This document shows, in pieces, positions 12,208 through 32,490 of a stretch of 50,311 nt of DNA. Made by a program: the position numbers and the translations under genes. The notes beneath the pieces were generated by a model. It was not told the DNA's origin, searched no databases, and worked only from the letters and a program-made list of their open reading frames with translations. Each line of letters starts with the position of its first letter. Positions within the stretch are counted from its first letter, which is position 1. Location of the stretch: positions 1-50,311 of the forward strand of contig SCPZ01000123.1 of the NCBI GenBank assembly GCA_004299305.1, written 5' to 3'. This stretch comes from Methylobacter sp. GTDB lineage: Bacteria; Pseudomonadota; Gammaproteobacteria; Methylococcales; Methylomonadaceae.

Positions 12208-12357
12208 GTTTGTTACAATGAAAATGTGGGAATAAGTTTCTAGATTAGAAGTGCAATGCAGCAAAATAATTAGGCTATACTTGGCCAGTTAAACGCAGGG
12301 TGCTGTAATATTCGCACGAGGTTTTTCTTTGAAAATTAGAGATTAGTGGAGAAAACA

Positions 12358-12720
12358 ATGGCAAGTATTCTTGCAGTTGACGATTCGGCTTCAATGAGAA
12401 AAATGGTTTCATTTACTTTAAGAGCTGCTGGATACGATGTCGAAGAGGCAGTGGATGGAGTTGATGCTTTAGAGAAAGCGCAAGCCAGAAAATTTGATTG
12501 TGTGGTAACCGATGTCAATATGCCAAATAAAGACGGGATTACTTTAATTAGAGATTTGCGAGCACTTCCAGATTATAAATTTATTCCAATGCTGATGCTG
12601 ACAACCGAGTCAGGAATCGAAAAAAAGCAAGAAGGTAAAGCTGCCGGTGCAACAGGATGGATGGTTAAGCCTTTCAATCCTGATCAATTATTAAAAACGT
12701 TACTAAAAGTTTTAGGTTAG
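12358..12720 (+). CDS. cheY: CheY-type response regulator
   Basis: A single receiver domain of 120 residues. The acidic pair D8/D9, phospho-acceptor D52 in VVTDVNMPNKDG, the T82/T83 pair and K104 in MVKPFNPDQ are all in place. I take ATG 12358, 7 nt after GGAG at 12347-12350; the in-frame GTG 12346 would be upstream of that site. First gene of the cluster and presumably the diffusible output of CheA. Whether its target is a flagellar switch, pili or something else cannot be told, since no motor gene lies nearby. Confidence 0.92.
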   Translation: MASILAVDDSASMRKMVSFTLRAAGYDVEEAVDGVDALEKAQARKFDCVVTDVNMPNKDGITLIRDLRALPDYKFIPMLMLTTESGIEKKQEGKAAGATGWMVKPFNPDQLLKTLLKVLG

Positions 12721-12771
12721 TTGATATTATAGTGCTTAAGTGTGGTGTATTAAGTGCATGCGGGAAAGTCT

Positions 12772-12813
12772 ATGCCTATTGATATGTCTCAAGCCCATGC
12801 GACTTTATTCTAA
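12772..12813 (+). pseudogene. 13-codon mini-ORF copying the start of cheA
   Basis: The reading frame MPIDMSQAHATLF plus stop closely repeats the true cheA start MSIDMSQFHQVFF, and the DNA just upstream (AAGTCTATG) matches too. It lies 109 bases before the cheA stop-free frame ends up at its own ATG (12922), and nothing homologous continues after the stop. It may be a relic of a partial tandem duplication of the cheA 5' end, or a short upstream ORF that influences cheA translation. Confidence 0.6.
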
Positions 12814-12921
12814 ATGTTTAGATAAATGGTTTTAAGTGTTTATCTAGGCAAGGGTCAATAAAGAAAGTTTTGGGTTACATTAATCTTGTTTAAATGAATT
12901 TAGGCGCACACAGGTAAGTCT

Positions 12922-15030
12922 ATGTCTATTGATATGTCACAATTCCATCAGGTCTTTTTTGAAGAATGTTTCGAAGGCCTGGAAGCAATGGAGTCAGGAT
13001 TGTTAACTCTCGATATGGGGGATATTGATTCAGAAATAATCAATACCATTTTCAGGGGGGCTCATTCTATAAAAGGCGGCAGTGGAACTTTTGGTTTTAC
13101 TGTTGTCGCGGAATACACCCATATTATGGAAACCCTACTTGATGAAATGCGAGATGGGCGTAGACAGGTAACCCAGCCAGCAGTAGATGTCTTGCTGGGG
13201 TCTGTGGACTGTCTTAGAGAAATGTTGACAGCGATACAGAATAAACAAAATATTAATAATGCCAGCGTAGCAAAGCATAAAGCGGCTTTGGAAGTTGTGC
13301 TTAATGGCGGTTCGATGGTTGAAGCGTCAGCGCCATCGGTCGAACAGGAATTGGCGGCTGAAGAGGTTGCTGTCAATATCGATCCTGATATTGTTGAAGA
13401 AGAATCCGGTGAATTGGAAGAGCAGGGTTGGAAAATAGCGTTTTGCCCTTATTTGGATTTGCTTAAAACCGGTAATGATCCGGTAAGACTATTTCGAGAG
13501 TTGAACGAGTTAGGTGAATTAACAACCCTTGCTAACATTCAGGATATTCCTGGTTTTTATGAATTAGACCCGGAGGAATGCAATATTTCTTGGGATTTGA
13601 AAGTTGTCGGTGATATTTCTGGCGATGAAATCAGGGAAATATTTAATTGGGTCGAAGGCGACTGTGAAATGGAAATTCAGCCGCTCGCCAAGACCGTAAA
13701 ATCAGCCCCCGTTGTAAATGAAGTCACTCCTGAACCCGTCGCAGTAATCACACCTAATAACCCTACTCCAAAACCCCTTGAAGTCAAAGCTAAGGTGGTT
13801 GCAGAAAACAAAAAATCGGATTCTCAAGACTCTGAGAATGAAGCAGCAAAAACTACAGCAAAAGCCAGTTCGATTCGGGTGGACACCGACAAAATAGATA
13901 CTTTAATCAATATGGTTGGTGAGGTTGTGATCACTCAATCCATGCTTGGGTTAGTGGGTGAGAACTTTAGCATGGATAAAGTCGGTCAATTGAAAAGAGG
14001 GTTGGCCCAGTTAGAACGGCATACTAGGGATTTACAACAAAGCGTCATGAATATTCGGATGCTTCCGATCAGTTTTGTTTTTAGCCGGTTTCCACGGTTA
14101 GTACATGATATCAGCAGTAAATTAGATAAAAAAATTGTACTGAAACTGGTTGGTGAAAACACCGAAGTTGATAAAGCCGTTGTCGAATTGATCAATGATC
14201 CGTTGGTTCATTTAATCAGGAACAGTCTGGATCACGGTATAGAAATGCCGGCGGATAGGGTCGCGGCAGGTAAGCCGGAAACTGGAACCATAGAGTTGAA
14301 AGCGTATCACCGTGGCGGTCATATTGTCATAGAAATCATTGATGATGGGCGCGGATTAGATAAAGATAAATTGCTGGCAAAGGCTATAGAAAAAGGACTG
14401 ATTGAAGAAAATAACCTTCTTACCGAAAAACAGATATTTGAACTGATTTTTATGCCGGGTTTTTCTACAGCCGAGCAGCTCACTGATATTTCCGGGCGCG
14501 GAGTGGGCATGGATGTTGTTAGAAGGAACATCCAGTCATTGGGCGGCAATATAGAAATTATTTCGGAACTGGGTAAGGGGACAACTATTGCGATCCATTT
14601 ACCGTTAACGTTGGCAATTCTTGATGGTCAATCTGTTGCGGTGGGAGATGAGACTTACATCGTACCGTTAGTCTCTATTATTGAATCAATTAATATTACG
14701 GAAAGAATGCTAAATAAAGTTGCAGGTAAAGGGGAGACCTTCCGCCTACGCAATGAATATTTACCTGTTATTAGAATGCGCAAAATCTTTAATGTTCATT
14801 CCGGAAATCCGACAAAATCAAAAGAGGGCGTCCTTGTAGTTGTTGAGGGTCAAGGTGAACTATGCTGTTTACTTGTAGATGAGTTATTAGGTCAACAACA
14901 GGTTGTTATTAAATCATTGGAAGCAAATTACCGACGGGTGGAAGGTGTTTCAGGTGCAACTATTTTGGGTGATGGTTCTGTTGCGCTGATTCTTGATGTT
15001 CCAGGTTTGGTGCGTTTTTCAATTCGCTAA
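12922..15030 (+). CDS. cheA: Chemotaxis histidine kinase CheA
   Basis: Cytoplasmic kinase that couples receptors to CheY and CheB. Domains in order: HPt (about 1-105) with phospho-His48 in RGAHSIKGGSG; a CheY-binding-like module (about 170-255) opening GWKIAFCPYLDLLKTGNDP; an acidic, proline-containing linker; the dimerisation helices from about 315; the ATP-binding domain with N-box LIRNSLDHGIE, G1 IDDGRGLD and G2 SGRGVGMDVV; and a C-terminal CheW-like regulatory domain from about 565. At 702 residues it is a full single-HPt CheA. A truncated copy of its start lies 150 bases upstream. cheW follows after 20 bases. Confidence 0.96.
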   Translation: MSIDMSQFHQVFFEECFEGLEAMESGLLTLDMGDIDSEIINTIFRGAHSIKGGSGTFGFTVVAEYTHIMETLLDEMRDGRRQVTQPAVDVLLGSVDCLREMLTAIQNKQNINNASVAKHKAALEVVLNGGSMVEASAPSVEQELAAEEVAVNIDPDIVEEESGELEEQGWKIAFCPYLDLLKTGNDPVRLFRELNELGELTTLANIQDIPGFYELDPEECNISWDLKVVGDISGDEIREIFNWVEGDCEMEIQPLAKTVKSAPVVNEVTPEPVAVITPNNPTPKPLEVKAKVVAENKKSDSQDSENEAAKTTAKASSIRVDTDKIDTLINMVGEVVITQSMLGLVGENFSMDKVGQLKRGLAQLERHTRDLQQSVMNIRMLPISFVFSRFPRLVHDISSKLDKKIVLKLVGENTEVDKAVVELINDPLVHLIRNSLDHGIEMPADRVAAGKPETGTIELKAYHRGGHIVIEIIDDGRGLDKDKLLAKAIEKGLIEENNLLTEKQIFELIFMPGFSTAEQLTDISGRGVGMDVVRRNIQSLGGNIEIISELGKGTTIAIHLPLTLAILDGQSVAVGDETYIVPLVSIIESINITERMLNKVAGKGETFRLRNEYLPVIRMRKIFNVHSGNPTKSKEGVLVVVEGQGELCCLLVDELLGQQQVVIKSLEANYRRVEGVSGATILGDGSVALILDVPGLVRFSIR

Positions 15031-15050
15031 TACAATACATAAAAGCAGAT

Positions 15051-15566
15051 ATGGCAGAAGAAGCTGAAAATAAAGATATTGACCAATATCACTATAGTAA
15101 AAACCTGGATAATGCAGTGCAGTATCTGAGTTTTGCCTTAGGTAAAGAAGAATATGGGGTTGATATTCTTCGAGTACAGGAAATACGAAGCTGGGAGCCT
15201 GTTTCCAGAATACCTAATGTTCCATGCTATGAAAAAGGTGTTGTTAATTTACGGGGTTCAATTGTGCCGATACTCGATTTGAGGGAACGGTTTAATTTGA
15301 GTAAAGCCGAATACACACCATTGACGGTAGTTGTGGTGTTGCAAACCGGCGATAGCAACAAAACACGTATTATGGGCGTTGTTGTCGATTCGGTCTCTGA
15401 TGTAATTAGCGTAGATAAAACTGAAATTCAAAGTGCTCCAGACTTTGGAACTAAAGTCAGTAACGAATTTATTAACGGGCTGGTATCGGTTAATGAACGC
15501 ATGGTGATGTTGCTTGATGTGGATAAGTTACTTAAATTAGAAGAATTGGATCAGGATGAGGGTTAA
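15051..15566 (+). CDS. cheW: Chemotaxis coupling protein CheW (first copy)
   Basis: Adaptor linking receptors to CheA. One CheW domain fills residues 25-160 of 171, with YGVDILRVQEIRSWEP, the conserved VVNLRGSIVPILDLRERF, and VVVDSVSDVISV. The N-terminal 25 residues are charged and probably unstructured. The paralogue at 18252 is clearly similar across the core, so the cluster has two couplers that could serve different receptors or CheA partners. It lies 20 bases after cheA and before a repeat-rich gap. Confidence 0.94.
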   Translation: MAEEAENKDIDQYHYSKNLDNAVQYLSFALGKEEYGVDILRVQEIRSWEPVSRIPNVPCYEKGVVNLRGSIVPILDLRERFNLSKAEYTPLTVVVVLQTGDSNKTRIMGVVVDSVSDVISVDKTEIQSAPDFGTKVSNEFINGLVSVNERMVMLLDVDKLLKLEELDQDEG

Positions 15567-15617
15567 AGTTTACGGCATCCAGTGTCTACATGGATGTAGG
15601 TAAAGGACATGCAGACG

Positions 15618-15660
15618 TGGACGCTTCGCCTACAGCGCCCACTTTGAGTGCTGTAGGCAA
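15618..15660. repeat. Degenerate REP-like palindrome
   Basis: GCCTACAGC at 15628-15636 pairs perfectly with GCTGTAGGC at 15650-15658 around a 13-nt loop. The element GCTTCGCCTACAGCGCCCAC closely resembles the core of the REP sequences that flank the transposase near 41 kb (GCTTCGCCTAAAGCGCCTAC), so it is probably an old member of that family. Confidence 0.55.
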
Positions 15661-15748
15661 TTGCTCCGTACATTGTACCCTACCTCCCCATCCTTGGTGG
15701 GGTACCTTCTGTATAATCGACATGGATGTGGGGAATGCATATATTGCA

Positions 15749-15826
15749 GGAGCAAACATTTGACCATGCGGTCGCGCTCATGGCTTTTACTTACGTTTTT
15801 GTAAGTAACGATTTTTCTGCTGCTCC
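15749..15826. repeat. Nested inverted repeat upstream of the receptor gene
   Basis: Outer arms GGAGCA (15749-15754) and TGCTCC (15821-15826) enclose two small hairpins, CCATG/CATGG (15764-15768, 15779-15783) and ACTTAC/GTAAGT (15789-15794, 15801-15806). It is non-coding. With the REP-like palindrome it fills most of the 312-base gap between cheW and the receptor gene, so the receptor may have a separate promoter, which I could not locate. Confidence 0.5.
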
Positions 15827-15878
15827 GAGTGGATGAATGTATTTGGCATGGTTTGTAACTTTTAAGAGGTAGCGTAGC

Positions 15879-18206
15879 GTGAAGATTAATATGCCGTTAA
15901 CGAACAATGAGGTCATTCTGAAAAAAGGTACCATCCTGGTTTCAAGAACCGATTTGATGGGACGTATTACCTACGTCAATGATGCGTTTGTTGAAATCAG
16001 CGGCTTCACCCGTGATGAGCTGATAGGGGCGGAACATAATATCGTTCGTCATCCTGACATGCCTGCGGAGGCTTATGAAGATTTATGGATAACCTTAAAA
16101 AAGCTTAGACCTTGGCAAGGATTGGTGAAAAACAGGTGTAAAAACGGTGATCATTATTGGGTTTCGGCAAATGCAATGCCGTTATTTAAAGATGGGAAAG
16201 TTTATGAGTATCTTTCTGTTCGGCATCCTCCAAAGCGTGACTTGATTCCGGCGACTGAGCTGTTGTACAAGAAAATCAGCGCTGGCGAAGTAAAATTAAA
16301 CCCTACAGGTTTGGCTTCGATGGCTAAATCTATTAATGAGATTGCCATAGCGAAAAAAAATGCTTTTGTTGTATTGGCTTTCCTGACGCCTATTTTTTTC
16401 CTGATGTATCGATTGTTCCTGACGCAGGAATATATTTTGTTAGCGGGTGTGGCCTTGTTAGCTATGATGGCATCGGCGGTCAGCATCAATATGAGTAAAG
16501 TGATAACCGAAACGCTGGAAACTGCAATCACTATTTGTTATAGATTGAGCAGTGGAAGCTTTGGAAATAAAGTGAACTTGAAACGAGAGGATCAGGTGGG
16601 TGATTTCCTGCGTGGTTTGTATTGTATGGAGGTTAAGTTGGGTGTGGATTTGGCCGATTATAAGCAAGATGCGGCAGAATCAAAACGGATTACCCAAGCT
16701 CTGGATAAAGTTCAATCCCCTGTCATGGTAGCGAATAAGAATTTTGAAATCATTTATATGAACGATAGCGTGCATAGATTATTCAAAACGGCAGAAAGTG
16801 ATATTCGCAAACAGATACCTGGTTTTTCTGCCGACAAATTGATGGGTTCTAATGTTGATCTATATCACCATACTATTAGAAGTGGGGTGATGGAAAAAGC
16901 ACAAGAATCATTCAAGTCGGAACTGATTATTGGTGGGCGGCATATGAATATTATTGCTACTCCCGTTAATGGCGATGATGGTGAACGTATTGGTTATGTT
17001 GCCGAATGGAAGGATAGTACTCATGAGGTTTTAATAGCCCAAGAGATTGACCATTTGGTACAAGGCGTTAAAGCCGGCGACTTAAGCTATCGCATAAGAT
17101 TAGAAGACAAGCAAGGCAGTCCTAAAGTACTGTCTGCCGGCATAAATGAATTAACAGATGTTATTGAAAGTGTGTTTGGTGATATTAACCGGGTGATGGA
17201 AAATATGGCTGAAGGTGATTTGACCACGGCCATTACTAATGAATATCAAGGTGTTTATGCTGAATGCAAGAATAATATTAATGGCACCTTGGCAAAGCTC
17301 AGTGAATTTATAATCCAAATCAGGGATGCCGCCGATTTTATTGATAGTTCGTCGCAAGAAATGGCCAGTGGTAATAACAATCTGTCACATCGAGCAGAAC
17401 AACAGGCCGCCAGCTTGGAAGAAACGGCTGCCAGCATGGAAGAATTGGCTAGTACTGTAAAAGCAAATGCGCAGAATACGATTCAAGCGACTGAAGTAGT
17501 TAATTCAGCAAGTCAATTAGCTCAAAAAGGCGGCACTGTGGTTAAGTCAGCTATCGCAGCAATGCAGGAAATTAATGAAAGCAGCAATAAAATTGCTGAA
17601 ATCATCGGTGTAATTGACGAGATTGCCTTTCAAACTAATTTGTTAGCATTAAACGCATCGGTAGAAGCGGCCAGGGCGGGTGAGCAGGGCCGTGGATTCT
17701 CAGTTGTTGCAACAGAAGTTCGCAACTTGGCGCAACGAAGCGCAACCGCTGCACAGCAAAGTAATGAATTGATCCAGAACAGTGTGCAGAAGGTTCGTGC
17801 CGGAACGGCATTTGTTAATGAAACAGGTGCGGCGCTAAATGAAATTGTCGAAAGCGTTGCGAAAGTTGGCGATATTGTTGCGCATATCGCCAGCGCTAGT
17901 TCAGAGCAATCAGCGGGTATCGAGCAGGTTAACCAAGCAGTTTCTCAAATGGATGATATTACTCAGCAAAATGCGGCTTTGGCAGAACAGGCGGCCGCAG
18001 GTAGTATCGCCATGAGCGAGCAATCTACTAATATGACCCAGTTGCTTAGTTTTTTTAGGGTTAATTCCAAGGGCGCCTCTGCAGCGACTAGATCCGTTGT
18101 GCGCAGTAAAGCGCCTGTTGCGCCAGTAAGACCCGCAGCCAAAAAAACTGCTGTTCAGGTTTTAAAGCCTAAAATCAATAGCAGCGATGAGTGGGAAGAA
18201 TTTTAA
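15879..18206 (+). CDS. Aer-like methyl-accepting chemotaxis protein (PAS, two TM, second PAS)
   Basis: Receptor with an N-terminal Aer-type PAS domain (about 10-120). The segment [10 protein letters not shown] (53-62), Trp70, Trp79 and KNGDHYWV (88-95) matches the FAD-binding PAS of E. coli Aer, so redox or oxygen sensing is likely. A hydrophobic hairpin at about 162-181 and 184-203 anchors it without a periplasmic domain. A second PAS-like region (about 270-380), HAMP-like stretches and the signalling domain follow, with tip [20 protein letters not shown]. The C-terminus EWEEF is a CheR-binding pentapeptide type. GTG 15879 follows AAGAGG and gives the same MKINMP start as the receptor at 47-50 kb. 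Confidence 0.93.
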
Positions 18207-18251
18207 TGTTGTTAATGCCGAAAACTATATAACCGACAGGAAACTATAACA

Positions 18252-18743
18252 ATGACAACAGATGTGCAGTCAAATAATAGTCGGGTTGAGCAATTTCTTA
18301 CCTTTCAACTCGCAGGCGAAGCGTATGGAGTTGAGATTTTGAAAGTACAAGAGATTCGTGGGTGGGAAGCTGTTCGGGTAATACCGAATACACCCGCTTT
18401 TGTTAAAGGCGTGCTGAATTTACGCGGATCCGTCGTGCCTATCATTGATTTACGTGAACGGTTTTCTTTAGAACACTGTGAATACTCTCCTAAAACGGTA
18501 GTTATTGTGCTCTGCGTTGAGCATGGTGCAAACCAGTTTGTAATGGGTATAGTGGCTGATGCTGTGTCTGATGTGCTGGATATTAACTTGGAAGATATTA
18601 AAAAAGCCCCAAACTTTGGTGCAAAAATTAATACGCGTTACATGCGGGGAATGCATGTGTATAAGAAAAAGATGATCATGCTCTTAGATGTCGATAAATT
18701 GCTCAATCCCGACGAGGTTGAGGGTATTGAAAGCTTGGTGTGA
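18252..18743 (+). CDS. cheW: Chemotaxis coupling protein CheW (second copy)
   Basis: A 163-residue CheW adaptor with YGVEILKVQEIRGWEAVRV, GVLNLRGSVVPIIDLRERF and VADAVSDVLDI. It is closely related to the CheW at 15051 but more divergent at the N-terminus, so the pair is an old duplication. It sits between the receptor and the ParA-type gene, only 3 bases from the latter, which implies translational linkage. Confidence 0.94.
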   Translation: MTTDVQSNNSRVEQFLTFQLAGEAYGVEILKVQEIRGWEAVRVIPNTPAFVKGVLNLRGSVVPIIDLRERFSLEHCEYSPKTVVIVLCVEHGANQFVMGIVADAVSDVLDINLEDIKKAPNFGAKINTRYMRGMHVYKKKMIMLLDVDKLLNPDEVEGIESLV

Positions 18744-18746
18744 TAG

Positions 18747-19514
18747 GTGAGAATTGTTGCAATAGTCAATCAGAAAGGTGGCGTTGGCAAAACGACGACG
18801 ACTGCGAATTTGTGTCATGCCATTGCAGAATCGGGCTTAAAAGTCACCGCTATCGATCTTGATCCGCAGGGCCATTTAGCTGTCTCTTTAGGTATTACAG
18901 CGCAGGGCGTTGGTGGTATCGATGAAGCTATGCTGAAACAGAAAAAAATTCATCAACAGCTTATTTCTGTCAGGGATAATTTGCACTTAGTTACATCAGG
19001 ACCAAAACTTAAGGAGATTGAGCATCTAGTCGGTAATAGTTCGCCTCGCGGTATTTTATTAAAAGATGCTTTGCATGAAGGTCTTAATGACCAGGATTTT
19101 GTTTTTATTGATTGTCCTCCATCTTCAGGGGTGCTGGTTGCGAACGCATTGATTGCAGCGGATGAAATTTTAATTCCAATGGCTAGTGATTTTCTTGCGT
19201 TGCAAGGGCTATCGCATTTAATGGGGACGATTAAACGCTTTGAAAAGGCTTTAAAGAAGGAATATAAAATATTGTTAGTAATGTCACGATATTCGCCAAA
19301 TAGAAGAATATCGAAACAGGTGTTAAATATTTTGCTTACGCATTTTCCTGAGCGAATATTAGCGACAGTTATTAGAGAAACGGCATTGCTTGCAGAGTGT
19401 CCCAGTTTTGGTAAAACAATTTTAGAATATAGTCCGAAAAGTCGTTCAGCAAGGGATTTTCGTAGCCTTGCTCATGATTTTCTTGAAGGCAAGGTGATGA
19501 ATGGCAACAAGTGA
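18747..19514 (+). CDS. ParA/Soj-type ATPase of the chemosensory cluster
   Basis: Deviant Walker A KGGVGKTTT, with Lys10 and Lys15, marks the ParA/MinD family; DLDPQGHLAVSLG and FVFIDCPPSSG are the A' and B motifs. At 255 residues there is no DNA-binding N-terminal extension, so it is the short type. ParA-like proteins in che clusters (PpfA of Rhodobacter, ParC of Vibrio) place or partition chemosensory arrays, and that is the likely role here. The start is GTG 18747, 3 bases after cheW. The gene overlaps the next by 14 bases. No ParB or ParP partner gene is visible. Confidence 0.88.
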   Translation: MRIVAIVNQKGGVGKTTTTANLCHAIAESGLKVTAIDLDPQGHLAVSLGITAQGVGGIDEAMLKQKKIHQQLISVRDNLHLVTSGPKLKEIEHLVGNSSPRGILLKDALHEGLNDQDFVFIDCPPSSGVLVANALIAADEILIPMASDFLALQGLSHLMGTIKRFEKALKKEYKILLVMSRYSPNRRISKQVLNILLTHFPERILATVIRETALLAECPSFGKTILEYSPKSRSARDFRSLAHDFLEGKVMNGNK

Positions 19515-20121
19515 AGAAAATGATTTAATTGGATACGATCCTTTAGCGTGGATGGAAGGCGATACCGATAAAAATGAAGAAGCAATCAACAACGAGGTTT
19601 GTGATAGCAATAATAAACCGGAAGAACAGCAGCTTATTGATAATGAAATTAGGGAGGCCGACGATTATTCAGATGATTCGATAGGAAATACTGAAGAAAG
19701 TACAATTCTAAATGTAACTAAAGAATCTGAATTAGCAATAGATGATGTTGCAGTTGAAAACGATAGTGCTTTGGCGGAAGAAATAGTAGGCGCTTTAAGT
19801 GATACAGGAGTGGTTGCCGAGGATTCTGTATCGGAGCAAACGGATGGATTGATAATCGATTTAGATGCTACGTTGAGTATTCAGAATGTTGTGAAGTTAC
19901 ACGAGAAGTTAAAAAATTTCATTGCTATAAATGAGCAAATTGAAATAAATGCATCTGATGTGTCGTCAATAGATACAACCACTTTGCAGTTACTTGTTGC
20001 ACTGAAAAGAGACGCAGTTAAGCTACAAAAGAAAGTAAGTATTATTTATCCATCCCCACGATTTGTTGAGTCGGCCAAGTTGCTGGGTCTGTTAGACGTG
20101 CTCGATGTTCATGACGTGTGA
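19501..20121 (+). CDS. Acidic protein with C-terminal STAS domain
   Basis: Residues 1 to about 115 are highly acidic and low in complexity, probably disordered, with a hydrophobic motif DPLAWM near residue 14 that could be a docking peptide. Residues about 118-206 form a STAS (anti-sigma-factor-antagonist-like) domain ending SAKLLGLLDVLDV. The usual phosphorylatable Ser region reads SSIDTTTLQLL, so Thr replaces the standard DSSG. The 14-base overlap with the ParA-type gene suggests coupled translation and a shared function, perhaps as the ParA partner. That role is inferred. No cognate anti-sigma kinase is seen. Confidence 0.75.
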   Translation: MATSEENDLIGYDPLAWMEGDTDKNEEAINNEVCDSNNKPEEQQLIDNEIREADDYSDDSIGNTEESTILNVTKESELAIDDVAVENDSALAEEIVGALSDTGVVAEDSVSEQTDGLIIDLDATLSIQNVVKLHEKLKNFIAINEQIEINASDVSSIDTTTLQLLVALKRDAVKLQKKVSIIYPSPRFVESAKLLGLLDVLDVHDV

Positions 20122-20149
20122 TGTTTGACGGACGGGAAACAGTTTAAAG

Positions 20150-20989
20150 ATGGCCATTGTTGAGAAGGTTCGCGAATTTAAGTTTACTGCGGATGACTTT
20201 AACTTTTTAAGAAAATTGTCCAATGAGCATTCAGGTATACAGGTTCCGGATGAAAGATTTGATATGTTTTATTCCAGGCTGTCCAAGCGGGTAAGGAAAC
20301 TTGGATTAGCCAATTTTAAGGAATATTGCCAGTATCTTAAAGATTATCCTGATCGCGAGTTTACTCAATTTATCAATGCGATAACCACTAATCTGACCGC
20401 TTTTTTTAGGGAAATGCATCATTTTGACTATGTTCGTGATACGGTTATTCCCGAAATATTAATTAGAAATAAAAGCTCTAGGCAGATCAGGGTGTGGTCT
20501 GCAGGTTGCTCTACGGGTGAAGAGCCTTACTCTTTGGCAATTACCTTGTTGGAAAATGTACCCGCTGATTGGGATATTAAGATTTTAGCAACTGATTTGG
20601 ATACCAATGTCTTGCAAACCGCATCGGAGGGCATCTACACCGAAGATCGTGTTAGTGACTTATCGGAAAATATACTTAAGCAGTGGTTTATGCGAGGTAA
20701 GTCAGCACAGTCCGGTCAAGTGAAGGTAAGACCTCAATTACAACAAGTTATTCAGTTTAAACAATTAAACTTGATGCAAGACTGGCCGATGAAATCCCAT
20801 TTTGATTTTATTTTTTGTCGTAACGTTCTGATTTATTTTGATCGTGAAACCAAGACGTTACTTGCGAAAAGATTTGCTCAAATGTTGCCTAGTCGATCAT
20901 GGTTATTTATCGGGCATTCAGAATCATTAAACCAGCTTTCAAATGAATTTGAGTTGGTTGCATGTACCAGTTACAGGAAAAACACGTAA
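20150..20989 (+). CDS. cheR: Chemotaxis methyltransferase CheR
   Basis: Methylates receptor glutamates with SAM for adaptation. The all-alpha N-terminal domain (about 1-90) includes SRLSKRVRKLGLANFKEY; the catalytic domain has VWSAGCSTGEEPYSLAIT (SAM site), LATDLDTNVL and FDFIFCRNVLIYFD. The 279-residue length is typical. It is 28 bases after the STAS gene and 6 bases before cheD. The EWEEF tails of the two receptors in the window would be suitable docking sites if this CheR is of the pentapeptide-dependent class. Confidence 0.95.
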   Translation: MAIVEKVREFKFTADDFNFLRKLSNEHSGIQVPDERFDMFYSRLSKRVRKLGLANFKEYCQYLKDYPDREFTQFINAITTNLTAFFREMHHFDYVRDTVIPEILIRNKSSRQIRVWSAGCSTGEEPYSLAITLLENVPADWDIKILATDLDTNVLQTASEGIYTEDRVSDLSENILKQWFMRGKSAQSGQVKVRPQLQQVIQFKQLNLMQDWPMKSHFDFIFCRNVLIYFDRETKTLLAKRFAQMLPSRSWLFIGHSESLNQLSNEFELVACTSYRKNT

Positions 20990-20995
20990 ATACCA

Positions 20996-21634
20996 ATGAG
21001 TATTAGCAATGATATTGGTCCACCCTCCATCGACGGTTTTGAACATATTAACAGGTATGTGGATAAAGAGCGTGGTGTGATCGCTGCAAAAATTTTGCCT
21101 GGTGAATACTACGTTACGCAGGAAGATGAATTAATTACAACAGTATTAGGGTCTTGTATATCTGCATGTATTCGGGATAAAGTGTCTGGACTGGGTGGGA
21201 TGAATCATTTTATGTTGCCGGAAACTACCGCAGATAAACTGAGGCAAGGTAATGAGTCTGTGGTGGGTAATGCAACCCGCTATGGAAATTATGCGATGGA
21301 GCATTTAATTAATACCATTCTGATGAATGGCGGCAAAAGAAAAAACTTGGAAGTTAAAGTATTTGGTGGTGGTAAAATCATTCCAACCTTAACTGATGTA
21401 GGTCTTAAAAACATTGATTTTATCTTGGAGTATATTGATACAGAGGGACTGTGTTTATTATCTCAGGACTTGGGCGATATTTATCCTAGGAAAATAATTT
21501 ATTTTCCTCGGACGGGGAGAGTTGGGATGAAAAAAATAGAGCATCTGCATAATGATACAATTATAAGAAGAGAGAAACAGTACTTTAACACTATTAAAAA
21601 TGCACCTGTTGAAGGTGAGGTTGAGCTTTTTTAA
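20996..21634 (+). CDS. cheD: Chemoreceptor glutamine deamidase CheD
   Basis: Deamidates receptor glutamines and in some bacteria couples to CheC. The catalytic Cys is in TVLGSCISACIRD and the His in LGGMNHFMLP; VKVFGGGKII is also characteristic. It has 212 residues, slightly longer at both ends than compact CheDs. No cheC is present in the window. A 50-base copy of its 3' end occurs again before the full cheB at 22243, evidence of a local duplication. Confidence 0.94.
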   Translation: MSISNDIGPPSIDGFEHINRYVDKERGVIAAKILPGEYYVTQEDELITTVLGSCISACIRDKVSGLGGMNHFMLPETTADKLRQGNESVVGNATRYGNYAMEHLINTILMNGGKRKNLEVKVFGGGKIIPTLTDVGLKNIDFILEYIDTEGLCLLSQDLGDIYPRKIIYFPRTGRVGMKKIEHLHNDTIIRREKQYFNTIKNAPVEGEVELF

Positions 21635-21643
21635 GAGTATACA

Positions 21644-22063
21644 ATGAATAAAATACGTGTATTGATTATCGATGATTCATTGTTAATCCGAAAGGTACTG
21701 ACTGAGATTTTAAATTCGTCTTCAGATATTGAGGTGGTTGGTACTGCAGAAGACCCTCTTATTGCTAGAGAGATGATTAAGGAATTAAATCCAGATGTAT
21801 TGACCTTGGATATTGAAATGCCGCGTATGGATGGGATAACCTTTTTGCGTAATTTGATGCGCCTCAGGCCTATGCCCGTTGTGATGATTTCAGCGCTCAC
21901 GGAAAGTAATGCCGAAGTTACTTTAACTGCTCTGGAGTTAGGGGCGGTAGATTTTATAGCTAAACCGACAATGGATGTGGAAAATACATTGAATGATTAC
22001 GCCGAGGACATCATTGCTAAGGTAAAAGTAGCGTCGCAGGCTAATATTAGAAGACTTGGATAA
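21644..22063 (+). CDS. Receiver-only CheB paralogue
   Basis: A 139-residue stand-alone receiver that is nearly the same as the receiver of the full CheB beside it (about four in five residues by eye). Asp10/Asp11, phospho-acceptor D56 in [12 protein letters not shown] and Lys107 in FIAKP are kept, so phosphorylation should still be possible. The methylesterase domain is gone; the frame ends QANIRRLG and stop, where the full copy continues into its linker. It arose by duplication and then deletion. It may act as a phosphate sink or a second CheY-like output, or may be in early decay, although its frame is clean. Confidence 0.85.
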
Positions 22064-22190
22064 TGAAGTCTAAAATCAAAAAAAAACTCTGGGACGGCAG
22101 CACTGGATCGCACGGAAAACATGTGCGTGTCGGAATGAAAAAACTCCGGAAATTTCAGTAATCGCTTGAAGTAAAGTGGTAGCAAGTAAC

Positions 22191-22242
22191 ATTAAAAATG
22201 CACCTATTGATGGTGACGACGGGCTTTTTTTAGAGTGGGTTT
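22191..22242 (+). pseudogene. Relic copy of the cheD 3' end
   Basis: ATTAAAAATGCACCT and the bases up to the next start codon repeat 21593-21643, the end of cheD and the short gap before the first cheB paralogue, with scattered changes. It is not an open gene. It marks the right-hand boundary of a tandem duplication whose unit was cheD tail plus cheB. The rest of the gap (22064-22190) shows no convincing remnant of a methylesterase domain. Confidence 0.8.
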
Positions 22243-23361
22243 ATGGGTAAGATACGCGTATTGATTATTGATGATTCAGCACTAATCAGGAAAATACTAA
22301 CCGAGGTTTTAAGTTCTTCACCTGATATTGAGGTAGTTGGTGCAGCGGCGGATCCTCTGATTGCCAGGGAAATGATTAAACAATTAAATCCGGATGTATT
22401 GACACTGGATATTGAAATGCCGCACATGGATGGGATTACTTTCTTAAGTAATTTGATGCGCTTAAGGCCAACGCCGGTTGTGATGATTTCTACGTTAACT
22501 GAGCATGGTGCAGAGGCTACTTTAAATGCTTTGGCGTTAGGCGCGGTAGATTTTATTGCCAAACCCAAAGTTGATGTCGTTAATACTTTGAATGAGTACG
22601 CAGAAGAAATTATTTCCAAGGTCATTGTTGCGGCACAAGCCAAAGTAGGTGGTGTTCATGACAGGATGATTAAGCCGAAAAGCTCTGTGGTAACTACTCC
22701 CGAGATTTCAGAAAAACACTCAGTCGATGTTATTCTGAAGCCTACTTCTACAAAAACACATATTGGTCCCACTAATAAGATAATTGCTTTAGGTGCGTCA
22801 ACCGGGGGGACGGAAGCGATTAAAGCGGTTGTTAAAGGATTTCCTGCAGATACCCCGCCTATTTTAATAACGCAGCACTTACCTGCGGCATTTAGTGAAT
22901 CATTTGTTCGACATATTGATCTTGCAACAGATATGTCAGCTTGTATTCCTAAGCATGGTCAAACGGTCGAACCGGGTAATATTTATCTTTCACCTGGAGA
23001 TAGGCATATGCTGGTGATTAGGGAGGGGGGTAAATATATTATTCATTTAAGCGACGGATTGCCTGTTAATCGCCATAAACCTGCGGTTGATGTCCTGTTT
23101 CGTTCAGTTTCGCAATGTGCAGGCGCTAATGCCATTGGTGTGCTATTAACAGGTATGGGCGCTGACGGAGCAGTAGGCATGAAAGAAATGCATGATGCTG
23201 GCGCCAAAACAGTTATTCAGGATGAGCAGTCCAGTGTGGTTTGGGGTATGCCTGGTGCTGCATTCAAGTTGGGCTGTACTGATTACATGGTATCGTTGGA
23301 AGAAATTGCGAATAAAGTTTTAAGCTTGGTTAAGCCGGGCAGTGTTGCCAAGGTTAACTAA
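22243..23361 (+). CDS. cheB: Chemotaxis methylesterase/glutaminase CheB
   Basis: Removes receptor methyl groups when phosphorylated by CheA. Receiver at 1-130 with D56 in [12 protein letters not shown]; linker of about 45 residues; catalytic domain with Ser186 in LGASTGGTEAI, His212 in ITQHLPAAFS and Asp308 in LTGMGADGAVGM. All catalytic residues are intact and 372 residues is normal length. It follows a relic of the cheD end and is the complete member of a duplicated pair. Confidence 0.95.
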   Translation: MGKIRVLIIDDSALIRKILTEVLSSSPDIEVVGAAADPLIAREMIKQLNPDVLTLDIEMPHMDGITFLSNLMRLRPTPVVMISTLTEHGAEATLNALALGAVDFIAKPKVDVVNTLNEYAEEIISKVIVAAQAKVGGVHDRMIKPKSSVVTTPEISEKHSVDVILKPTSTKTHIGPTNKIIALGASTGGTEAIKAVVKGFPADTPPILITQHLPAAFSESFVRHIDLATDMSACIPKHGQTVEPGNIYLSPGDRHMLVIREGGKYIIHLSDGLPVNRHKPAVDVLFRSVSQCAGANAIGVLLTGMGADGAVGMKEMHDAGAKTVIQDEQSSVVWGMPGAAFKLGCTDYMVSLEEIANKVLSLVKPGSVAKVN

Positions 23362-23524: not shown

Positions 23525-24139
23525 ATGACTAATCAGACTAAATCACAATTTATTGCAGTAGCTTCCATTACCTCGGAGTTAAGTGCGGTCATGGTGGTGG
23601 CCAAGGAAATATCATTAGCAGCGGCCAATGCTAAGGCTATTGCATTTAGGGCTGGAGATAAAGCAAAAGGATTTCAACCGATTACTGATTTTATTAATGA
23701 ATTGGCTAAAGAAACAATAGAACTGGTTACTAATATCAATATATATGCATTGGTGTTATATCGATTAACCGTCAATGAATTTCAAAAAACGACTGCTTAT
23801 AATAAATTTGAGTTGGCAGCAAAAATGGCTGAAAGTGATGGTGCCGTTTATGCTAACACAATGCAGGGGCCTGTGGATCATGCAAGGCTTTCAATGCAAG
23901 ATTGCCAGAGGCAGTTTAAACGGGATGTTTCGCAACTGCTAGGCCAGCTTGAAGCAGTGATGCATCATGCGCGTGCCGCACGGGTTATTGCTGCAAACTC
24001 AAGAATTGAAGCATCCCAGGCGGGTGAATATTTGCAGAGTCTACAAGCAGTTGCTGAAAGTGTGGATAAAGCTGCACATACCATTCATGATAATGTGCAA
24101 CGTTGCAGAATCGCATTATCTATTTATCGCAATAGCTGA
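23525..24139 (+). CDS. Small soluble protein with two degenerate receptor-tip motifs
   Basis: A 204-residue, mainly helical protein with no membrane segment or known sensor domain. Residues about 31-64 (LAAANAKAIAFRAGDKAKGF and onward) follow the receptor hairpin-tip pattern N-A-x-x-E-A-A-R-A-G, with the conserved Glu replaced by Ile39. Residues about 156-187 (AANSRIEASQAG and onward) match it again, keeping Glu162 but with Gln165 for Arg. So two tip-like helices occur in one short chain. It could be a receptor mimic, coupler or decoy binding CheW/CheA. It lies between cheB and the ODP-like gene. Function unknown; the resemblance is by eye. Confidence 0.65.
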   Translation: MTNQTKSQFIAVASITSELSAVMVVAKEISLAAANAKAIAFRAGDKAKGFQPITDFINELAKETIELVTNINIYALVLYRLTVNEFQKTTAYNKFELAAKMAESDGAVYANTMQGPVDHARLSMQDCQRQFKRDVSQLLGQLEAVMHHARAARVIAANSRIEASQAGEYLQSLQAVAESVDKAAHTIHDNVQRCRIALSIYRNS

Positions 24140-24171
24140 ATAGCTGCTAATTACAGGAAGCATTGTTTCTT

Positions 24172-24900
24172 ATGAAAACGACGAAGATATATGAAGGAAC
24201 GCACCAGTGGATTATGTTTGGAAGGGATGAAGGCAAGCCCAGTAATATAATCGACACCAATCAATATGTAGTACGTACGGCTAACCGTTGCCTGCTTTTG
24301 GATCCAGGTGGTGCCGAACTGTTCGCTCCTATGATGGCTGCTGTGTTGCATCATGCTCCAGTGGATCAAATAACGGACCTGTTTGCTTCGCATCAGGATC
24401 CTGATGTAATCTCGTCACTGGGTTTATGGGATCAGGCTTTAACAAATGCCAGGCTCCATGCGCCGGCTATTTGGGAAGGTTTTTTGCGGCATTACAGTTG
24501 TGAATCAATAGAGTATGTGCCTATCCCAGATAATGGCGGAACAATTAAATTAGAGTCTGTGGAATTGCAGATTATTCCTGCTCATTATTTGCACTCATCA
24601 GGGAATTTTCATGTCTATGATCCGCAAGCTAAAATTCTGATGTCCGGGGATGTGGGGGCAGCTTTTGAGGCGCCTGATTCTCCCGTGTTTGTTGATAATT
24701 TCGCAGTGCATGTTGAAAAAATGCGTCATTGGCATCAACGAATGATGCCGTCAAATCAAGCAAAAAGAGTCTGGATTGAACGGGTAAGAAACCTTGATAT
24801 TGATATTTTGGCTCCGCAGCATGGACGGATGTTTAGAGGTGATGATGTCAAGCGGTTTTTAGATTGGTTTGATGCTTTACAGGTAGGTATTGCTGTTTAA
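24172..24900 (+). CDS. ODP-like diiron metallo-beta-lactamase-fold protein, probable oxygen sensor
   Basis: A flavodiiron-type metallo-beta-lactamase domain without the flavodoxin part. Six metal ligands can be assigned: His74, Asp76 and Asp78 (SHQDPD), His138 (PAHYLHS), Asp160 (MSGDVG) and His217 (PQHGRM). This is the arrangement of the oxygen-binding diiron protein ODP found in the chemotaxis operon of Treponema denticola, so an oxygen- or iron-sensing role in this cluster is likely; an NO or O2 reductase partner role is less likely without flavin domains. ATG 24172 is preferred, though TTG 24163 is closer to AGGA. Last gene of the cluster, 32 bases after the double-tip gene. Confidence 0.82.
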   Translation: MKTTKIYEGTHQWIMFGRDEGKPSNIIDTNQYVVRTANRCLLLDPGGAELFAPMMAAVLHHAPVDQITDLFASHQDPDVISSLGLWDQALTNARLHAPAIWEGFLRHYSCESIEYVPIPDNGGTIKLESVELQIIPAHYLHSSGNFHVYDPQAKILMSGDVGAAFEAPDSPVFVDNFAVHVEKMRHWHQRMMPSNQAKRVWIERVRNLDIDILAPQHGRMFRGDDVKRFLDWFDALQVGIAV

Positions 24901-31252: not shown

Positions 31253-31828
31253 ATGGCTGTTTCACTCACTAAAGGCGGCAACATTAGCCTATCGAAGACT
31301 GACCCAACCCTTAAAAACCTGATTGTTGGCCTTGGATGGGATGCAAGACCCACCGATGGCGCAGATTTTGACCTGGATGCCAGCGCATTTATGGTCAAAG
31401 AAGATGGCAAGGTCAGATCCGACAGTGATTTTATTTTCTACAACCAGACTAAATCCGCTTGCGGTTCGGTTGAGCATACCGGTGATAACCGTACCGGCGC
31501 CGGTGATGGCGACGATGAAGCTGTTGTCGTACTACTCGATAAAATACCGGTTGATATTCAGCGCGTTATTTTTGTCGTCACTATTCACGAAGCCGATGCG
31601 CGTAAACAAAATTTCGGGCAGGTATCACATGCTTATGTCCGGGTGGTTAATAAAGATTCGAACAGCGAAGTCGCAAGGTACGACTTAAGCGAAGACGCTT
31701 CGATTGAAACCGCTATGATCTTTGGCGAAATCTACAAACACGGTGCTGAATGGAAATTTAAAGCCGTAGGTCAAGGATATGCAGGCGGATTGGCCGCTTT
31801 AGCCCGCCAACACGGGATTAATATCTAG
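31253..31828 (+). CDS. terD: TerD-family stress protein (first copy)
   Basis: Calcium-binding TerD domain of 191 residues, found in tellurite-resistance and general stress loci. The Ca2+-site acidic clusters are DFDLDASAF and [10 protein letters not shown], and the family signature [19 protein letters not shown] is intact. AGGAGA (31240-31245) sits 7 nt before the ATG. A near copy follows at 31915. It heads the Ter locus; no terC or terA is nearby, so classical tellurite resistance is less certain than a stress or signalling role. Confidence 0.93.
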
Positions 31829-31914: not shown

Positions 31915-32490
31915 ATGGCAGTATCACTTACGAAAGGCGGTAACGTTAACCTCAGCAAAGAAGCCCCCGGATTAAATAAAATCGCAGTAGGCTTAGGCTG
32001 GGATGCTCGTGCAACCGACGGCGCGGCGTTCGATTTAGACGCCAGTGTCTTCTTGGTTAAAATGGATGGCAAAGTTCGTTCAGACAACGATTTTTGTTTT
32101 TATAACAACAAGGTGGTCGGCGATGGTGCGGTTCAGCACATGGGCGACAACACCACCGGCGCAGGTGAAGGCGATGATGAAACAGTCAAGGTTGAATTAT
32201 CCAAAGTGCCCGGCGATTTGGATAAAATTGTGTTCGCGGTAACCATTCATGAGGCCGAAGCGCGTAAGCAGAATTTCGGCCAAGTCAACCATGCCTATAT
32301 TCGCGTGATAAATGAAGACGGCGGCGCAGAAATTGCGCGTTACGATTTGAGCGAGGACGCTTCAATTGAAACGGCTATGATTTTTGGTGAAATCTACCGT
32401 GTGGGTGCAGAGTGGAAGTTTAAAGCCGTCGGTCAAGGTTTTGCCGGCGGACTGGGGCCTTTAGCGGCTTCTTTTGGGGTTAATGTCTAA
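31915..32490 (+). CDS. TerD-family stress protein (second copy)
   Basis: A 191-residue paralogue of the TerD protein just upstream, same length and nearly the same ends, with AFDLDASVF and [10 protein letters not shown] as metal sites and [19 protein letters not shown] conserved. It has Asn/His changes around the middle loop ([16 protein letters not shown]). It most likely arose by tandem duplication, and could form mixed assemblies with the first copy. AGGAGAG precedes the start at good spacing. In E. coli plasmid loci such pairs are called TerD and TerE; which label fits here is not decidable by eye. Confidence 0.92.

Follow-up and report, generated by a model that had tools for sequence, protein, structure and literature searches.

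The two-tip gene and its locus

The window analysed here, a stretch of 50,311 nucleotides from a Methylobacter sp. contig (SCPZ01000123.1), holds a gene for a 204-residue protein placed between cheB (22243-23361) and a gene for an oxygen-binding di-iron protein (ODP), behind a chemosensory cluster (Table 1). A preliminary description of this gene had read in its product two degenerate copies of the chemoreceptor hairpin tip and had proposed that it mimics a receptor, links two arrays or reports the state of the neighbouring oxygen sensor. Pfam supplied the names of the STAS, response-regulator and CheB genes and of the receptor domain in the cluster; the remainder were named by reading the sequence. 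The ODP open reading frame (ORF) is listed from a TTG codon, and an in-frame ATG at 24172, after a purine-rich stretch, is its likelier start. Between the end of cheB and a point beyond the end of the ODP gene, predicted promoter and terminator sites were no more numerous than in shuffled sequence.

Table 1 Features of the two-tip locus, in window coordinates
Feature	Coordinates	Strand	Description
Chemosensory cluster upstream	12346..23361	+	cheY, cheA, cheW, PAS-containing receptor, cheW, parA, STAS, cheR, cheD, response regulator, cheB
Two-tip protein gene	23525..24139	+	ATG start, 204 residues, soluble; four-helix bundle from one chain (predicted)
Tip 1, residues 31-64	23615..23716	+	N35, R42, G44, G49, F50 retained; Ile39 at Tsr E385 position
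Connecting segment, residues about 88-137	23786..23935	+	predicted far-end turn 105-109; site of family length variation
Tip 2, residues 156-187	23990..24085	+	N158, E162, G167, E168 retained; Gln165 at R388 position; turn Gly-Phe replaced by Ser172-Leu173
ODP gene (PF19583, 235.7 bits; PDB relatives 6qrq, 6qnm)	24163..24900	+	ligand-type His and Asp residues conserved

The window protein carries two receptor tips. In the numbering of E. coli K-12 Tsr (N381, E385, R388, G395, F396), N35, I39, R42 and G49/F50 of tip 1 take the positions of N381, E385, R388 and G395/F396, and the corresponding residues of tip 2 are N158, E162, Q165 and S172/L173; the residue changes first noted (Ile39, Glu162 and Gln165) are all correct in this alignment. 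To quantify the likeness, a canonical-tip set was built from the window's own genome, using 30 of its 39 PF00015 matches (32 rows, 29 distinct; 33 in the alignment with the window's tip), and compared by hhalign against three parts of the family alignment, with 100 column shuffles and the reversed alignment as controls. Tip 1 (residues 1-75) scored 78 (E 2e-16; shuffle maximum 24.6, reversed 9.4) and tip 2 (residues 130-204) scored 38 (E 8e-8; shuffle maximum 19.4, reversed 16.8), and the middle (residues 76-129) gave no tip match, its score of 8.3 lying inside the shuffle range (maximum 12.6). The tips also matched each other (score 29, E 1e-5; shuffle maximum 20.1). These shuffled and reversed controls, together with the blank middle segment, rule out a chance likeness between helices.

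General receptor models are the only ones in Pfam and NCBIfam that fit. The Pfam MCPsignal model (PF00015) covers residues 12-72 of the window protein in two stretches at 22.2 bits, short of its curated cut-off of 34.6, although both tips match the canonical-tip profile above every shuffle, if in degenerate form. Of 23 family members, 14 match PF00015 with E ≤ 0.01; the strongest, at 1.4e-11, probably clears the cut-off. When the window protein and these 23 members were scanned, the matches were mainly to receptor families, with others in one or two members each, and membership of an unrelated helical family was rejected. In the PDB, the sequences that match the window protein at E ≤ 0.001 all belong to cytoplasmic domains of receptors, namely 2ch7 (E 4.7e-5), 3ja6, 3ur1, 4jpb, 3g67 and 3g6b; we take 3g67, 3ur1 and 4jpb to be Thermotoga Tm14, their PDB names giving methyl-accepting chemotaxis protein (MCP) only. 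The window protein has no clear membrane helix: its best 19-residue hydropathy window, at residues 8-26, reaches a borderline 1.65 and falls within a predicted bundle helix. Across the family, 11 of 43 representatives reach 1.6, with a maximum of 2.28.

Spread and tip asymmetry of the family

The family set comprises 126 ORFs at 121 loci and 88 distinct sequences, many loci being repeat views of the same genomes, and the chains are 192-299 residues long. Clustering 125 of the ORFs at 85% gave 43 representatives, leaving out the partial L089 and ORFs of at least 330 residues. Relatives are named Methylobacter, Methyloglobulus, Methylovulum and other Methylococcales, and 73 of 201 genomes of this order have a match at E ≤ 1e-5; one of the 73 (G011) has its match in a 506-residue frame, probably that of an ordinary receptor. 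Across 369 class genomes, a profile search found full-length matches in 21, with E values between 2e-85 and 5e-22; after these came a match at 9e-16, and from there down the frames were mostly longer and receptor-sized. Nine more of these genomes have divergent members, found only beside ODP, for 30 of 369 in all. The corresponding search of 398 genomes of the phylum yielded six with E below 1e-25, all Gammaproteobacteria, a search in which more divergent members elsewhere could be missed. L197 is a weak member (23 bits) of unsure placement in the tree.

The decay of the tips is asymmetric and conserved across the 43 representatives. Tip 1 keeps Asn381 in all 43, Phe396 in all 43 and Gly395 in 41 (Ser in two), and has lost the glutamate of position 385, which reads I in 24, V in nine, L in six, A in two, and E and M in one each. 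Tip 2 keeps that glutamate in 39 (V in four) and has lost the Gly-Phe of the turn, with Gly395 in two, and Phe396 in two against Leu in 41. Position 388 is R31 Q11 K1 at tip 1, and at tip 2 Q in 16, R in nine and other residues in the rest. The two residues of the Glu385-Arg388' lock are thus split between the tips, with Arg388 retained by tip 1 in 31 of 43 representatives and Glu385 by tip 2 in 39. Among the 32 receptor rows of the window's own genome, 30 carry E at position 385 and all carry F at 396. A methylation consensus, in the form in which we assume the motif to hold, occurs in none of the 43 representatives and in 28 of 32 receptor frames of the window's own genome.

Co-descent with the adjacent ODP

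The gene downstream in the window encodes a full member of the PF19583 oxygen-binding di-iron family (E 1.5e-61 against PDB 6qrq), with candidate ligand residues in place. Such a gene follows on the same strand at 120 of the 121 two-tip loci, and at the exception the sequence stops 142 bases past the gene, at a contig edge. Counted by ORF, ODP follows 125 of 126, with a gap of at most 40 nucleotides or an overlap in 115, of 41-200 in five and of more than 200 in five; each of these last five opens a tandem pair, and four are repeated sightings of a single pair. Seven candidate ligand-type His and Asp positions, whose di-iron roles we presume from flavodiiron proteins, do not vary among the 41 linked ODPs. 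Six of the seven can be placed in unlinked ODPs and are invariant in 43 of 43 there too, so that these residues do not mark off the linked type.

Seen from the ODP side, 105 ODP places were found in 72 of the 369 class genomes (E ≤ 1e-40), of which 104 could be scored (L325 has no scorable ODP ORF; L314 starts at a contig edge, its upstream side unseen). A two-tip gene lies upstream in 33 of the 104, 22 of them known from the profile search and 11 divergent; by eye, the ORFs upstream of ODP in L313, L321, L296 and L274 are not two-tip proteins. A tree of 84 ODPs (IQ-TREE; 36 hand-picked from the 121 two-tip loci, repeats left out, with five divergent and 43 unlinked) splits all 41 linked from all 43 unlinked sequences by a branch of 100/100 support, with a program warning of long branches. 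The linked ODPs thus form their own side of the tree against the unlinked ones sampled. Profiles of the two sets, applied to 58 further ODP ORFs, called six linked-type (at least 99 bits), all six with a two-tip partner, and 43 unlinked-type (at least 43 bits); nine were undecided, with at most 20 bits between the two models, eight of them leaning slightly to the linked type. A two-tip partner was seen in none of these 52.

The partners have also diverged together. The division of the ODP tree into types recurs in the two-tip tree at the minimum possible number of changes (support 96/96, 76/92 and 86/81), and pairwise distances correlate at r 0.854 (n = 41; maximum of 1000 permutations 0.257). 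By linkage and co-descent, the two-tip protein is a dedicated partner of the adjacent ODP, a tie to the oxygen sensor stronger than the one originally guessed.

Linkage to chemotaxis genes was surveyed by phmmer with the window's own genes on the fetched stretches of 77 loci, where distant genes may be missed; 28 of the 77 are listed individually. A CheA, CheB, CheR, CheD or CheW gene occurs in 56 of the 77. In L264, L266, L092 and L093 the two-tip/ODP pair sits within a che operon, directly between cheW and cheR or cheD. In the 21 genomes with full-length matches, at least seven or at least eight profile matches were counted per genome, which indicates that ordinary receptors are present in them.

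Some further ODP arrangements were seen. ODP domains lie in long frames of 601-1186 residues, probably fusions, at L193 (358-2196), L290 (2-3562), L320 (2182-4260) and L324 (1410-3215), and L275, L309 and L310 have tandem pairs of unlinked-type ODP genes. At L296 (3537-4010) a 157-residue ORF, roadblock/LC7-like by eye, directly precedes an unlinked ODP and is perhaps another partner for that ODP branch.

Predicted fold and proposed role

Two AlphaFold monomer models (pLDDT 88.6 and 92.2) place the chain in a single four-helix bundle of two antiparallel hairpins with both tips at the same end, as expected of two receptor hairpins joined in a single-chain receptor. In the second model, DSSP assigns residues 2-107 to a single helix, yet this model superposes on a four-helix bundle, so its tip-1 turn must be very tight. 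A Foldseek search with the predicted fold gave no match at E ≤ 0.001. The best rows of a VIA fold search were designed four-helix bundles, and the 50 rows listed include the periplasmic PilJ and TorS sensor bundles and no receptor tip domain, as expected because a single receptor chain is half a bundle. The distance between residues 87 and 138 takes values of 28, 30, 45-49, 51 and 53 in the family, with the commonest in 30 of 43 representatives, and this connecting segment accounts for nearly all the variation in length between the anchors checked.

ODP-coupled cytoplasmic receptors carry one tip per chain and dimerise; Thermotoga Tm14 is presumably one of them. In Treponema denticola, an ODP-coupled receptor without membrane or sensing modules can modulate CheA, and deleting ODP alters CheA order in the arrays, where the position of ODP was not seen (PMC7666581). 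Interaction of ODP with cognate receptors is stated in a review (PMC6978683), and a TREND case study mentions ODP-receptor operons in two gene orders (PMC7319448). Like T. denticola TDE2496 with its ODP TDE2498, the family is soluble, lacks a membrane or sensor module (hydropathy being borderline in some members) and has an adjacent ODP gene; unlike such receptors, it holds two diverged tips in one short chain, and the window protein falls below the MCPsignal cut-off. Two receptor subunits per chain, as a covalent pseudo-dimer, are also described for engineered Tsr~Tsr and for natural soluble MCP domains of Rhodospirillum centenum and others, described only as single-chain MCP signalling domains and with their role unknown there (PMC4692393), whereas the bundle here is short, asymmetric and tied to ODP. 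The part of the R. centenum genome paper at hand gives no architecture for them. With DosM, discussed below, these domains are published natural exceptions to the rule of one tip per chain, which is otherwise right for normal receptors. The literature searched, which excluded the main ODP paper (Muok et al. 2019; it may list these genes as receptors), contained no description of a short two-tip ODP partner, which bears on the earlier suggestion of an undescribed family. ODP-receptor pairs, single-chain receptors and the double-tip DosM are already known; the short, asymmetric, ODP-tied form is new.

We consider it reasonably likely that the two-tip protein is a natural single-chain stand-in for the tip of a chemoreceptor dimer, a pseudo-dimer that brings ODP to chemoreceptor arrays; with ODP, it is probably a stripped-down oxygen receptor. 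The two hairpins are predicted to fold back on each other with the tips together. ODP would bind iron and oxygen and dock on a part of the bundle remote from the tips, the tip end would enter the CheA/CheW base plate next to ordinary receptors, and the state of ODP would alter the bundle and shift CheA activity. Lacking a clear membrane helix, a ligand domain and a methylation consensus, the protein would serve as a short accessory receptor that does not itself adapt. In a receptor dimer one subunit faces the trimer axis and the other CheA/CheW (PMC4692393), and dimers are joined by E385-R388' locks and F396 stacking (PMC8144572). The fixed asymmetry of the tips suggests divided roles; for example, tip 2, with Glu385 kept, could face the trimer axis, and tip 1, with Gly-Phe kept, CheW/CheA. 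Splitting the lock might fix orientation or prevent homotrimers. More tentatively, the protein may be an oriented receptor whose tips have permanently split the inner, trimer-axis job and the outer, CheA/CheW-facing one, both of which the identical subunits of ordinary receptors share, a methylation-free oxygen or iron plug-in for existing arrays that forms a two-gene cassette with its sensor in many families of Gammaproteobacteria.

Several points weigh against this reading. We infer the binding of the two-tip protein to CheW, CheA or ODP, and the linked sequences share ancestry, the 126 ORFs at 121 loci reducing to 88 sequences and 43 clusters. At least one member probably passes the MCPsignal cut-off, so that an annotator would regard some members simply as short receptors. 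The AlphaFold models are of monomers only, and domains may be swapped between two chains. Both tips are degenerate, and array binding may for that reason be lost. Among loci of other orders, 18 of 20 have no detected CheA, CheB, CheR, CheD or CheW gene in wide flanks (the exceptions being L264 and L266); a CheY-like match was seen in L261 and a receptor match in L268, leaving 16 of 20 with none of these. The pair thus often travels alone and would have to act on arrays encoded elsewhere.

These last two points would fit an ODP-specific scaffold or regulator off the arrays, a pseudo-receptor with tips kept only for folding or holding ODP. We regard this as unlikely, since the residues that tip 1 conserves, and the Glu385 of tip 2, go beyond the needs of a generic bundle, some pairs lie inside che operons, and the 21 genomes with full-length matches have ordinary receptors. 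The split lock, which means that a trimer could be only partly locked, would also suit a decoy or capping protein whose incomplete trimer interface would curb the growth of arrays or block control of the kinase, at times set by ODP; no evidence here separates blocking from signalling, the ODP precedent is a working receptor, and we think this version very improbable. Equally hard to credit is a miniature DosM, in which the middle turn opens and two chains swap into a rod that carries one pair of tips at either end and bridges two CheA/CheW layers. DosM itself occurs naturally as a receptor with two tips, one signalling domain lying at each end (PMC7534058), sensory domains are absent in 98% of its homologues in one survey (PMC9321776), and swapping was seen in engineered single-chain receptors (PMC4692393). 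However, the DosM tips lie at opposite ends of an extended rod across two base plates, whereas both models here close the bundle with the tips together, and the variable segment between residues 87 and 138 hardly fits a continuous coiled coil, though 30 of 43 share one length. DosM is characterised by two full signalling domains, and the window protein is under the MCPsignal cut-off and has no Gly-Phe turn at tip 2; DosM has, moreover, been described with F9 arrays and not with ODP. A link between two arrays, as first proposed, is thus disfavoured by the shared end of the tips in the predicted bundle and by the connecting segment, which departs from its commonest length in 13 of 43; the proposal of a receptor mimic is supported. 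Neither outcome that the preliminary description had named as refuting, a placement in an unrelated helical family or a predicted fold lacking receptor-like antiparallel hairpins, was observed.

The identical subunits of a trimer of dimers play different parts that conventional mutations cannot separate, the stated motive for the single-chain receptors of Mowery et al. (PMC4692393). A natural chain with already diverged tips would allow a direct test of the two subunit roles. The pseudo-dimer would further illustrate how a free sensor protein is coupled to chemotaxis arrays by way of a very short receptor. For methane-oxidising bacteria, whose habitat lies at oxygen gradients, it would amount to a defined input for oxygen or iron.

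Four ODP matches occur in the window's own genome, three of them strong and one weaker. Those on C1 (the window) and C10 are linked, and that on C11 has no tip gene in its 1.5-kb flanks. On C10 (L090 3431-4057 and 4048-4638) two diverged two-tip ORFs of 208 and 196 residues overlap in tandem, the second overlapping the ODP gene, and their chains possibly form a heterodimer. One ODP stands behind both, followed by a PAS-type receptor, and L093 has a related tandem pair. In L315 and L316 a receptor-like ORF of 420-424 residues lies directly beside the two-tip/ODP pair, beyond ODP. Elsewhere in the window, a stand-alone receiver domain before cheB (21644-22063) is close to CheB's own receiver, as if a remnant of a cheB duplication, and two similar 191-residue genes lie in tandem at 31253-31828 and 31915-32490, with products that we take to resemble TerD-type proteins.
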